Source: Desertivirga xinjiangensis
GTDB lineage: Bacteria; Bacteroidota; Bacteroidia; Sphingobacteriales; Sphingobacteriaceae
Length of the DNA: 64,000 nucleotides
Assembly (NCBI RefSeq): GCF_024436435.1
Contig: NZ_JAFMZP010000010.1
Span: 1-64,000, forward strand
Direction: 5' to 3'
Below, in pieces: positions 56,780-60,119 of the stretch. Numbering within the stretch: position 1 is the stretch's first letter; every line of letters begins with the position of its first letter. Below the pieces are notes generated by a model. The model saw only the letters and a program-made list of their open reading frames with translations, was not told the origin of the DNA and did not search any database. The position numbers were made by a program, and so were the translations under genes.

Positions 56780-57256
56780 ATGGAACAATATCCAGAAAAT
56801 TACACTAAGCAGCTCCAAAGGCTATTGGCGCTTGTGTCTGACAGTAAAAAACACTATCAACATGCGGCCGAAAACTTAAAATCTTCGGAGTTCAAAGATC
56901 TCCTGAAGCAATATGTGGTTGAAAGGGAAAATATCATAGTTGAACTCAAGGAAAAAATTGCGAGTATGGGTGGCGACCCGGACGAGGATGAGCATGGATT
57001 TCTATCCATATTACATCGTGGGTGGCTGGAAATGAAAGCTAAGGCAGCGGGTAAAGGCGACCAGGAACTTCTTGAGGCTTGTAGAAACACAGATCAGGCT
57101 CTACTTGACGGATATGATGATGTTCTTCAGGGTACCCTTCTGGAACACAGTGATTTAAAAACATTTGTCTCGGGACAACGATTAGCTGTGAACGAATCGT
57201 TCTCGGAGCTTGACCGCCATTATTTTAATCTGTTCAATACAAATAACTCTCTTTAA
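56780..57256 (+). CDS. PA2169-family (DUF2383) four-helix-bundle protein
   Basis: A 158-residue helical protein. Acidic and aromatic residues are spaced as in ferritin-like bundles: YVVERENIIVELKEKIASMGG, LEACRNTDQALLDGYDDVL and VNESFSELDRHYF. It matches the PA2169/DUF2383 stress-associated group, whose function is unknown. It is two bases ahead of ku and probably starts the ku-ligD transcript, an arrangement that may link it to the DNA-damage or stress response. Confidence 0.85.
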   Translation: MEQYPENYTKQLQRLLALVSDSKKHYQHAAENLKSSEFKDLLKQYVVERENIIVELKEKIASMGGDPDEDEHGFLSILHRGWLEMKAKAAGKGDQELLEACRNTDQALLDGYDDVLQGTLLEHSDLKTFVSGQRLAVNESFSELDRHYFNLFNTNNSL

Positions 57257-57258
57257 TT

Positions 57259-58029
57259 ATGAGATCAATCTGGAAAGGCTCTATTGGCTTTGGACTGGTA
57301 AATATCCCGATAAAGTTATATTCGGCGGTACAAAGCAGTTCGCTGGGTTTGGACATGCTTGATAGCCGTGATCATTCCAGAATTCGTTATCAGCGAATTA
57401 ATGAAAAAACCCGGAAAGAGGTACCTTACGAAAAGATTGTAAAGGGCTACCCTATCAATGATTCGTACGTCATTCTTGAAGATAAAGATTTTGAGGATGC
57501 CAGCCCTGAAAAAAGTAAAATAATCGAGATTGAGAACTTTGTAGACTTAAACGAAGTTAACCCGATGTTTTATGAGACATCGTATTATACGGAGCCAGAA
57601 GCCCAGGGTAAAAAGGCCTATGCTCTTCTGCTTAAGGCACTGCAAAAATCCAAAAAGGCCGGCCTTGCACGATTTGTTTTGCGAAGCAGTGAAAATCTTT
57701 GCATCATTCACCCAGTTGACAAAGTAATTGTTGCATCAAAGATCCGGTTTGCCGATGAGATCCGTTCCTCTGAAGAAATTCTCACTCCCGATAATGTTGA
57801 AGTGAGTAAAAAAGAACTGGATATGGGACTCGCATTGATAAACCAGTACAGTGGTAAGTTTGAAATTGAAAAGTTTAAAGACGAATATCACAGCGAACTA
57901 TTGAAAATTATCCAGGCAAAAGCTAAAGGTAAACGTCCAACTATCAAGAAACTTAAACCTCAAAAGGCTTCCGACGATAATCTTTATGATATGCTGATGC
58001 AGAGCCTTGGTTCTAAGAAAGGAGCATAA
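57259..58029 (+). CDS. ku: Ku protein (bacterial NHEJ DNA-end-binding)
   Basis: A 256-residue bacterial Ku of the homodimeric type. It starts MRSIWKGSIGFGLVNIPIKLYSAV; the core beta-barrel covers about 1-200 (RIRYQRINEKTRKEVPYEKIVKGY, ALLLKALQKSKKAGLARFVL). A basic C-terminal tail (about 215-256, KAKGKRPTIKKLKPQK) is of the kind that contacts LigD. It encircles DNA ends in non-homologous end joining. It overlaps ligD by one base. Confidence 0.94.
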   Translation: MRSIWKGSIGFGLVNIPIKLYSAVQSSSLGLDMLDSRDHSRIRYQRINEKTRKEVPYEKIVKGYPINDSYVILEDKDFEDASPEKSKIIEIENFVDLNEVNPMFYETSYYTEPEAQGKKAYALLLKALQKSKKAGLARFVLRSSENLCIIHPVDKVIVASKIRFADEIRSSEEILTPDNVEVSKKELDMGLALINQYSGKFEIEKFKDEYHSELLKIIQAKAKGKRPTIKKLKPQKASDDNLYDMLMQSLGSKKGA

Positions 58030-60119
58030 TGGGCTTAAAGGAATACAAGAAAAAAAGGAATTTTCAGGAAACCTCCGAGCCGGATACTGATGAAAAGAAG
58101 TCGGAAGGCAACCTATCCTTCGTTGTTCAAAGACATCACGCTTCTCACCTGCACTACGACTTCAGACTGGAAATGGAGGGTGTATTAAAGAGTTGGGCTG
58201 TACCAAAAGGTCCGTCCCTGAATCCCAAGGATAAGCGGCTGGCTATGATGGTTGAAGATCACCCCTATGATTACCGGACGTTTGAAGGAGTGATTCCTGA
58301 AGGAAACTATGGTGCAGGACTTGTTACTATATTCGATGAGGGTACTTATGAATCGTTGGGTAGCAAAAACCATGAGAAAGAGTTAAAAAAAGGCCTTTAT
58401 GCTGGTAATCTTAAATTTCGTCTTTTTGGGAAAATACTCAGAGGTGAATTTGCTCTGGTGAAGCTTAAGGGATCAGACGAAAAATCCTGGCTTCTGATCA
58501 AGCACAGGGATGAATATGCTGTAGACAAGCAGTTCGACAGCGAAGATCTTATTCCTGAGAAAGTGAAAAAACGTGGTTTGGATCGGAAGAAACTTGCTAA
58601 AGTGGAAAAAAGCAAGGCGTATTCGGAAGAGGCGGATGGTCTGTATAAACCAATGGTCCCGCAATTCTCGAAAAAAATGCCTGATGGCGACGGCTGGATC
58701 TTTGAGGAAAAATTAAAGGGCCAACGGTTAATTTCACATACTGGCGATAACCATAGGATCCTTTCGGAGGACGGTGTAGATGTGTCCGAAGAATTCGTTT
58801 CCTTAACTAAAGCACTTTCTTCGCTCGACAAAGAAGCCGTTATAGATGGTGTTTTAGTAGATGGGAAGAAATATATTGCGTTTGATCTGCTTTCTTTAAA
58901 TGGCCATGATACCCGCGGCCTGGAACTGATAAAAAGGAAGGAATTGTTGAAAGCACTATTGGCAGATGTCAAAAAAGATTCAATCTCGTACCTTGGGCAT
59001 TCGACTGACGGTGACAAACTGAAACCTTCAAAAAAAGACGTGTCGGGTTTTATAGCGAAAGAAAGTAGCAGCGTTTATGAAAATGGCTCGAAATCAAAGC
59101 AGTGGCTGGAAATTTCAATCGCCGACTCCTTTCAGGGCGTAGAAAAGAAAGCTAGCCCCTCTCCTTCTAAAAAAATGAAAAACATGGCCCAGGAAACTGA
59201 ATTTCCCGATGAAAAAGAAGAAGACTTTGGTAAAAAGAAACTGAAGCTTACTAATCTCAATAAATTCTACTGGAAGAACGAAAAGATCAAAAAAGGTGAT
59301 CTCATCGAATATTATCGCAATATTTCTGATCATATATTACCATATTTAAAGGACCGGCCGCTATCGTTAAACAGACATCCTAATGGAATCGACGGTCCAA
59401 ACTTTTTCCAAAAGGACCTTGATACTGACCAGATTCCTTCCTGGATAAAGTACCAGCCTATGTTCTCAGAAAGCAATAACAAGGATATTGACTATCTTAT
59501 ATGTAATGACCTGCCTACTCTTCTTTGGATGGCGAATTTGGGCTGCATTGAAATAAACCCCTGGCTTAGCACTTATAAACGTCCGGAAAACCCAACTTAT
59601 GCGGTGCTCGACCTGGATCCTAACGACGTTGATGACTTCGATGATGTAGTGCGCGTAGCTCTTACAGCGAGAGATATTCTGAAGAAAATGGGAATCCGCC
59701 CTTTTATTAAAACTTCAGGTTCCAGAGGGCTCCATATTTTCATTAATGTAGGTGCACGCTACGATTATGAGGTGGTAAAGAATTTTGTAAACTTTCTTGG
59801 GAAGCTGATACTGGAACAATATCCTGATCTGACTAGTCTGGAGCGTAGTCCCTCGAAAAGAAAGAAGAAGATATATCTCGATTTTCTGCAGAACAGACGG
59901 GGACAGACTATAGCAGCCCCTTACTCTGCGCGGCCAAAGCCTGGGGCAACTGTTTCAACACCTCTTGCCTGGGAAGAAGTTGTTGAGGGACTTGATATCA
60001 AGCAGTTCACGATCTTTAATATCCTGGACAGGATTAAAGAAAAGGGTGATCTGTGGAAGGATATAACCAGCGAAAAAACAGATTTGAAAAGAGCTCTGGA
60101 GATGATGAATAAAGCTTGA
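58029..60119 (+). CDS. ligD: LigD-type NHEJ protein: phosphoesterase and polymerase intact, ligase domain degenerate
   Basis: 696 residues in order phosphoesterase (about 28-170), ligase-like (about 206-365), primase/polymerase (about 400-690). The phosphoesterase keeps RHHASHLHYDFR and EDHPYDYRTFEG, and the polymerase keeps LDLDP (about 528) and FLQNRRGQT. The ligase motif I reads EEKLKGQR: the Lys is kept (228), but the Asp of KxDG is Lys. Motif III is DGV instead of DGE, motif IV SGFIAK lacks its Glu, and motif V WLEIS lacks its Lys. The OB-fold after it is missing; a charged linker (371-400) leads straight to the polymerase. Confidence 0.9.
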   Translation: MGLKEYKKKRNFQETSEPDTDEKKSEGNLSFVVQRHHASHLHYDFRLEMEGVLKSWAVPKGPSLNPKDKRLAMMVEDHPYDYRTFEGVIPEGNYGAGLVTIFDEGTYESLGSKNHEKELKKGLYAGNLKFRLFGKILRGEFALVKLKGSDEKSWLLIKHRDEYAVDKQFDSEDLIPEKVKKRGLDRKKLAKVEKSKAYSEEADGLYKPMVPQFSKKMPDGDGWIFEEKLKGQRLISHTGDNHRILSEDGVDVSEEFVSLTKALSSLDKEAVIDGVLVDGKKYIAFDLLSLNGHDTRGLELIKRKELLKALLADVKKDSISYLGHSTDGDKLKPSKKDVSGFIAKESSSVYENGSKSKQWLEISIADSFQGVEKKASPSPSKKMKNMAQETEFPDEKEEDFGKKKLKLTNLNKFYWKNEKIKKGDLIEYYRNISDHILPYLKDRPLSLNRHPNGIDGPNFFQKDLDTDQIPSWIKYQPMFSESNNKDIDYLICNDLPTLLWMANLGCIEINPWLSTYKRPENPTYAVLDLDPNDVDDFDDVVRVALTARDILKKMGIRPFIKTSGSRGLHIFINVGARYDYEVVKNFVNFLGKLILEQYPDLTSLERSPSKRKKKIYLDFLQNRRGQTIAAPYSARPKPGATVSTPLAWEEVVEGLDIKQFTIFNILDRIKEKGDLWKDITSEKTDLKRALEMMNKA

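Follow-up and report, generated by a model that had tools for sequence, protein, structure and literature searches.

In this study, a 64,000-nucleotide stretch of Desertivirga xinjiangensis DNA (assembly GCF_024436435.1, contig NZ_JAFMZP010000010.1, positions 1 to 64,000 of the forward strand; hereafter the window) was analysed with regard to its genes for non-homologous end joining (NHEJ), which encode Ku and LigD. The window LigD was observed to keep its 3'-phosphoesterase (PE) and primase-polymerase (Pol) domains; the ligase module between them has lost most of its active site and the whole OB-fold. The reading preferred here, to which we give a probability of about 0.7, is that this Ku-linked LigD, its ligase module being dead, acts as a PE-Pol end processor and that the nick is sealed in trans, most likely by a Lig-OB-Pol or an EEP-Lig-OB-Pol paralogue encoded elsewhere in the genome.

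The LigD gene is a single unbroken frame of 696 aa at 58029..60119 (+) and encodes, in order, PE, a dead nucleotidyltransferase core, a linker and Pol. The ligase remnant occupies residues 206-365 (58644..59123, +). With the NCBIfam ligase-domain model TIGR02779, the protein scored 68.3 bits, below the cut-off of 227.75, and with the whole-protein LigD model TIGR02776 it scored 333.3 bits, below the cut-off of 373.2; the general Pfam ligase family PF01068 was still passed (45 bits against a cut-off of 26.2, E 1.3e-11). No match to the OB-fold family PF04679, a domain that an ATP-dependent ligase would be expected to carry, was found anywhere in the window LigD by Pfam search. The OB-fold is replaced by a charged linker (59124..59213, +) of low model confidence, with pLDDT below 50 at residues 368-386.

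Residues of the Mycobacterium tuberculosis enzyme (MtbLigD), with their roles taken from section 6 of PMC8656161, were mapped onto the window LigD by spacing. Motif I (58710..58727; this and the following on the + strand) reads K228-L-K230-G-Q-R233, in which the lysine nucleophile is kept. The motif Ia position (58767..58769) holds E247, corresponding to R501 of MtbLigD. In motif III (58845..58853; D273-G-V275), V275 corresponds to E530; in motif IV (59043..59060; S339-G-F-I-A-K344), E613 is lost and K618 kept; and in motif V (59103..59117; W-L-E361-I-S363), both K635 and K637 are lost. Relative to full-length orthologues, these are replacements of D to K, R to E, E to V and E to S in motifs I, Ia, III and IV, respectively, and of K to E and K to S within motif V, with a further R to K (K355) just before it. 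The equivalents of R501, E530, E613, R629, K635 and K637 are gone, and those of K481, R486 and K618 are retained as K228, R233 and K344. Approximately 18-22 residues are also absent after motif III, in addition to the entire OB domain. An earlier reading made from the DNA alone (hereafter the sequence-only reading) had described a continuous frame, these sequences of motifs I, III, IV and V (KLKGQR, DGV, SGFIAK and WLEIS) and a charged linker into Pol in place of the OB-fold, and was right in each; neither an OB-fold nor ligase motifs were found elsewhere in the chain by family searches or in the structure model.

Section 6 of PMC8656161 reports that E613A or K637A alone abolishes nick sealing by MtbLigD; since the equivalents of both residues are lost here, the window LigD is very probably ligase-dead. 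The module could in principle still adenylylate or seal under special conditions through K228 and other residues, in keeping with the retention of K228 and R233 in motif I and K344 in motif IV, but six further active-site positions and the whole OB-fold are lost, and single substitutions at two of those positions suffice to end sealing in MtbLigD, which makes such activity highly improbable.

All 11 checked active-site residues were intact in 73 of 80 related loci, a fraction that is not a frequency because the loci were the best 80 of at least 439 candidates, found with a query built from the degenerate LigDs of the window and Pararcticibacter amylolyticus and read at the best + strand ligase-core match per locus. 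The losses in the window therefore exceed ordinary variation. The other seven loci comprised a contig-end truncation (L092), a split gene in which one K has become R (L158) and five in which the module was lost (L089, L090, L096, L097 and L107). Chance or sequencing error was considered and rejected, as many substitutions stand in one open frame and an equivalent form occurs in a second genus.

The flanking domains are intact, as the sequence-only reading had also held. PE (residues 3-162; 58035..58514, +) matched positions 1-156 of TIGR02777 with 210.2 bits against a cut-off of 144, and its modelled fold gave a Z of 22.6 to the PE of Pseudomonas aeruginosa LigD (3n9b). Pol (residues 403-690; 59235..60098, +) matched TIGR02778 at residues 405-651 with 244.3 bits against a cut-off of 214.7, and its modelled fold gave a Z of 38.6 to the archaeal NHEJ polymerase 5dmu. 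D528, D530 and D618 of Pol, which we take to be the metal-binding residues, are kept and are invariant across 49 alignment rows. LigD adjoins the gene for Ku (256 aa; 57259..58029, +; TIGR02772, 288.8 bits against a cut-off of 150), the stop codon of which overlaps the LigD start.

The genome assembly is 5.5 Mb in size and 99.98% complete. One Ku above the family cut-off was found in it, that of the window, together with one further match of 12.5 bits, below the cut-off. The single PE domain of the genome (PF13298) lies on the window LigD. Three further ATP-dependent ligases with intact motifs and OB-folds (PF01068 plus PF04679) were detected, and these account for all three PF04679 matches in the genome. 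They are a 702-aa Lig-OB-Pol protein (L006:4372-6480) and a 964-aa EEP-Lig-OB-Pol protein (L007:2898-5792, -), each with an intact ligase module and Pol and without PE, and a 538-aa ligase with an N-terminal ligase domain (L008:3590-5206), presumably of the LigB type. In the 964-aa protein, an exonuclease III-like EEP domain (PF03372) is fused to the N-terminus of Lig-OB-Pol; it might take over the cleaning of ends from PE. The search for a second LigD or LigC that the sequence-only reading had suggested was thus positive. The domains are complementary: the protein with the dead ligase carries the only PE, and the proteins with sealing modules have none.

These data suggest the following course of repair. 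Ku would bind the break and recruit the window LigD through its Pol domain; PE would trim the 3' ends; Pol would fill gaps or add nucleotides; and sealing would take place in trans by one of the two LigD paralogues, which would bring their own Pol, with the 538-aa ligase as a further candidate. Since the relevant passage of PMC7719229 describes the Ku-LigD interaction as mediated by Pol, the window LigD is expected to have kept its recruitment, trimming and filling functions. Backup sealing by LigC of breaks handled by a ligase-defective LigD is on record in parts of PMC5124664 and PMC7719229. The sequence-only reading had proposed a split NHEJ in need of another ligase; intact ligases with complementary domains are indeed present, and from these we infer that the paralogues serve this Ku. 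The nucleotidyltransferase core may persist either as a decaying spacer or as a retained binding scaffold.

The shortened form was found in 2 of 399 family genomes scored, those of the window and of Pararcticibacter amylolyticus FJ4-8 (G075, L089), which belong to two genera. The search used a profile of the degenerate region, with which the two positives scored 388-395 bits and the next best match 141. In P. amylolyticus, a complete gene of 708 aa stands behind those for a DUF2383 protein and Ku. In both sampled congeners of the window strain, LigD is full-length (frames of 844 and 848) and follows DUF2383 and Ku. A widespread conserved clade of shortened ligase domains in the family, which the sequence-only reading had proposed to look for, was rejected on these numbers, and the gene trees do not unite the two bearers.

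Ligase losses of other kinds were observed in relatives. Pedobacter nyackensis has a partial core, no OB-fold and an adjacent Ku. In Pedobacter deserti, the ligase is wholly absent, leaving an in-frame PE-Pol fusion, with Ku approximately 43 kb away. The Chitinophagaceae metagenome-assembled genome (MAG) RYN_291 carries a dead core without OB-fold in a frame that runs off the contig, and another PE plus ligase beside its Ku. In the Mucilaginibacter MAG RYN_318 and in G263, PE and Pol are separate frames and the core is deleted. At the G263 locus (L196), a short repeat, PVRGYPF, is read twice approximately 17 codons apart between the PE and Pol pieces, at the former core site. The genomes of the window, P. 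amylolyticus, P. nyackensis, P. deserti, RYN_291 and RYN_318 have one Ku match each, and each has another PF01068 plus PF04679 frame long enough for LigD (661-979 codons); the check for Pol on such frames covered the window genome. In the first four of these genomes, the single PE is on the ligase-less protein; RYN_291 and RYN_318 have two PE.

Loss of the ligase module in four further Ku-bearing genomes (P. nyackensis, P. deserti, RYN_291 and RYN_318) favours processing by the window LigD with sealing in trans. Several points weigh on the other side. Nothing links the paralogues to Ku, no Ku having been found near either within the stretches read. Further ATP-dependent ligases, in PF01068 plus PF04679 frames of LigD length, are also carried by 3 of 3 intact relatives checked; hence, the paralogues are permissive rather than diagnostic. 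The retention of K228, R233 and K344 leaves room for residual nucleotide binding or adenylylation. Finally, the ligase-less PE/Pol pair of G263 occurs without a Ku match, so such losses can be plain pathway decay.

By that account, NHEJ is being lost in the lineage, with the ligase module going first and PE, Pol and Ku on their way out. The differing depth of the ligase losses in several lineages would fit, and so would the genomes G263 (PE and Pol pieces) and G350 (only Pol in the stretch read); since no Ku match at E <= 1e-10 was found in either, ligase loss in these two looks like decay. In the window, however, no part of the operon is missing, and two genera carry the form in an open frame. 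Identity between the window and the two congeners is ordinary for Ku (85-90%), PE (79-82%) and Pol (79-83%). Synonymous sites were saturated for most pairs, and the ratio of the proportions of nonsynonymous and synonymous differences (pN/pS) was therefore used instead of dN/dS. For PE and Pol, pN/pS was 0.13-0.16 in pairs that include the window, the same constraint as in intact relatives. Decay of the pathway is accordingly regarded as an unlikely explanation for the window locus.

Constraint on the remnant itself is clearly relaxed. Its pN/pS was 0.47-0.68 in seven pairs with a remnant, the bootstrap intervals of three pairs tried lying within 0.37-0.72; intact ligase cores gave 0.27-0.32 in five pairs and 0.15 in the closer pair G012-G034. 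Part of the remnant divergence may predate the loss of the ligase, so that some constraint on the remnant may remain.

In the structure model, computed from a 49-row alignment, the remnant takes the form of a nucleotidyltransferase core, with ten-residue pLDDT means of 86-97 over residues 211-360 except for one block of 77, and no OB-fold follows the core. Residues 202-365 superposed on residues 454-639 of the MtbLigD ligase domain (6nhz) with a Z of 21.3 and a root-mean-square deviation of 2.0 over 161 aa (VIA-align); by the model, the core fold is thus preserved. A match with a Z of 18.5, likewise over 161 residues, was obtained to the m3G-cap-binding domain of snurportin1 (1xk5). Most rows of the alignment are intact ligases, on which the model may lean, and a model built from just the remnants of the window and P. 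amylolyticus gave no information (pLDDT 32.6).

These results bear on whether the dead module has been repurposed, with the core serving as a scaffold that binds a ligand or DNA ends and either links PE with Pol or delivers ends to the trans ligase. Such a role would agree with the complete modelled core and its likeness to a cap-binding domain, with the retention of K228, R233 and K344, and with the 36% identity that persists between the remnants of the window and P. amylolyticus despite saturation at synonymous sites. Furthermore, these two remnants agree at 6 of 15 doubly novel residues, against 1.4 expected (P 0.0017, by a rough model), despite separate gene trees. But the alignment behind the model is dominated by intact ligases, the pN/pS of the remnant is raised, P. 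deserti does without the whole module, and losses are weakly enriched at catalytic columns relative to the other conserved ones (P 0.05 for the window, 0.48 for P. amylolyticus and 0.04 for RYN_291). We hold repurposing to be a tentative alternative. A fuller version of it, in which the dead core binds ATP, DNA ends or a partner and belongs to a Ku-PE-Pol machine from which processed ends go to a separate LigD, the same replacements having been reached in two genera, is likewise conceivable and rather doubtful.

The D to K, E to V and K to E replacements occur in both remnants, and 13 of 158 residues are common to them and unseen in five comparison rows; the same count was 0-4 in other cross-genus pairs and 2-9 in same-genus pairs. 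Trees were compared for the origin of this likeness; most of their branches were unstarred, support was modest and g1 itself was not a clade for PE plus Pol. In the PE plus Pol tree, the window sequence grouped with G002 (80/77) among rows of g1 and g11, and P. amylolyticus fell within its own genus (94/94); the DUF2383 and ProS trees agreed in direction. In the Ku tree, the window grouped with G001, G002 and G013 (90/91), and the placement of P. amylolyticus was unsettled. Forcing the window and P. amylolyticus together cost 14.3 log-likelihood units for PE plus Pol, without rejection by the approximately unbiased test (p 0.082), and 7.8 for Ku (p 0.026). Whole-gene horizontal transfer between the two lineages is not supported, as the PE plus Pol, Ku, DUF2383 and ProS trees do not unite them. 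With all 158 columns, the remnant tree paired the window with P. amylolyticus (86/92, on long branches), and keeping each sequence with its genus was not rejected (p 0.23 and 0.25). With 22 motif columns removed, P. amylolyticus returned to its own genus (88/86), and the pairing was not rejected either (p 0.26). The shared replacements would reflect either exchange of a small segment or the same changes arising twice, and the data fit both.

Upstream of Ku in the window, at a distance of 2 bp, lies the gene for a DUF2383 protein (56780..57256, +; PF09537, E 1.5e-23), so that the DUF2383, Ku and LigD genes are packed tightly on the + strand. A DUF2383 homologue stands just before Ku in eight relatives (G001, G002, G012, G034, G010, G065, G075 and G084), and the protein evolves fast, with 41-57% identity.

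Other LigD arrangements were seen in the same family. An 847-codon frame of G067 (L201:2722-5262, -) encodes a permuted LigD of order LIG-OB-PE-POL. In G159 (L200), LigD is in three pieces (PE plus the core start, the core middle, and OB-Pol) with gaps of approximately 1.2 kb, as if elements had been inserted in the ligase module. In G111 (L197), Ku and a Pol-only gene are convergent, and the 10 kb read showed neither PE nor a ligase core. A recurrent split in Bacteroidota places PE in a separate stop-to-stop frame that overlaps the Lig-Pol frame after it (L203, L066, L105, L118, L164, L165 and L168); of these loci, L203 and L066 were checked for Ku and have it adjacent.

Among papers in open PubMed Central, none was found that describes a LigD from Bacteroidota whose ligase module is dead or absent. 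According to section 18 of PMC7719229, a survey from 2020, every member of the Bacteroidetes that has NHEJ has the conventional kind; a domain survey in which each LIG match counts as a ligase present would probably class the window genome in this way too, given its PF01068 match of 1.3e-11. A natural ligase-dead LigD beside the sole Ku, with intact paralogues in the same genome, offers a test of whether processing and sealing pass between two LigDs, and raises the question of an independent function for a pseudo-ligase core.

Like the three-domain LigDs of Bacteroidota (e.g., Pedobacter sp. SYSU D00535, L091), P. aeruginosa and M. tuberculosis, the window LigD has PE, the core and Pol on a single polypeptide encoded next to Ku; it differs from them in that most ligase active-site residues are replaced and the OB-fold is deleted. 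The snurportin1 cap-binding domain has a similar nucleotidyltransferase-like core, used for cap binding. Snurportin1 is a eukaryotic import adaptor in which this domain is non-catalytic, and we know of no link between it and DNA repair. LigC backup, in which another enzyme seals in trans for a LigD with a defective ligase, resembles the arrangement proposed here. The ligase-defective LigDs concerned are laboratory mutants, whereas the window presents a natural state, with LigD-type paralogues as the candidate sealers. Split NHEJ with the domains on separate proteins is known from archaea and from Streptomyces, for which parts of PMC5124664 describe Pol-only and Lig-only proteins. As in those systems, the ligase here would be on a polypeptide other than the Ku-linked Pol; their domains, however, are separate genes, whereas the window LigD keeps a dead core between PE and Pol. 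Split NHEJ as such is therefore already known, and what is new here is a natural three-domain LigD whose ligase core is very probably dead.

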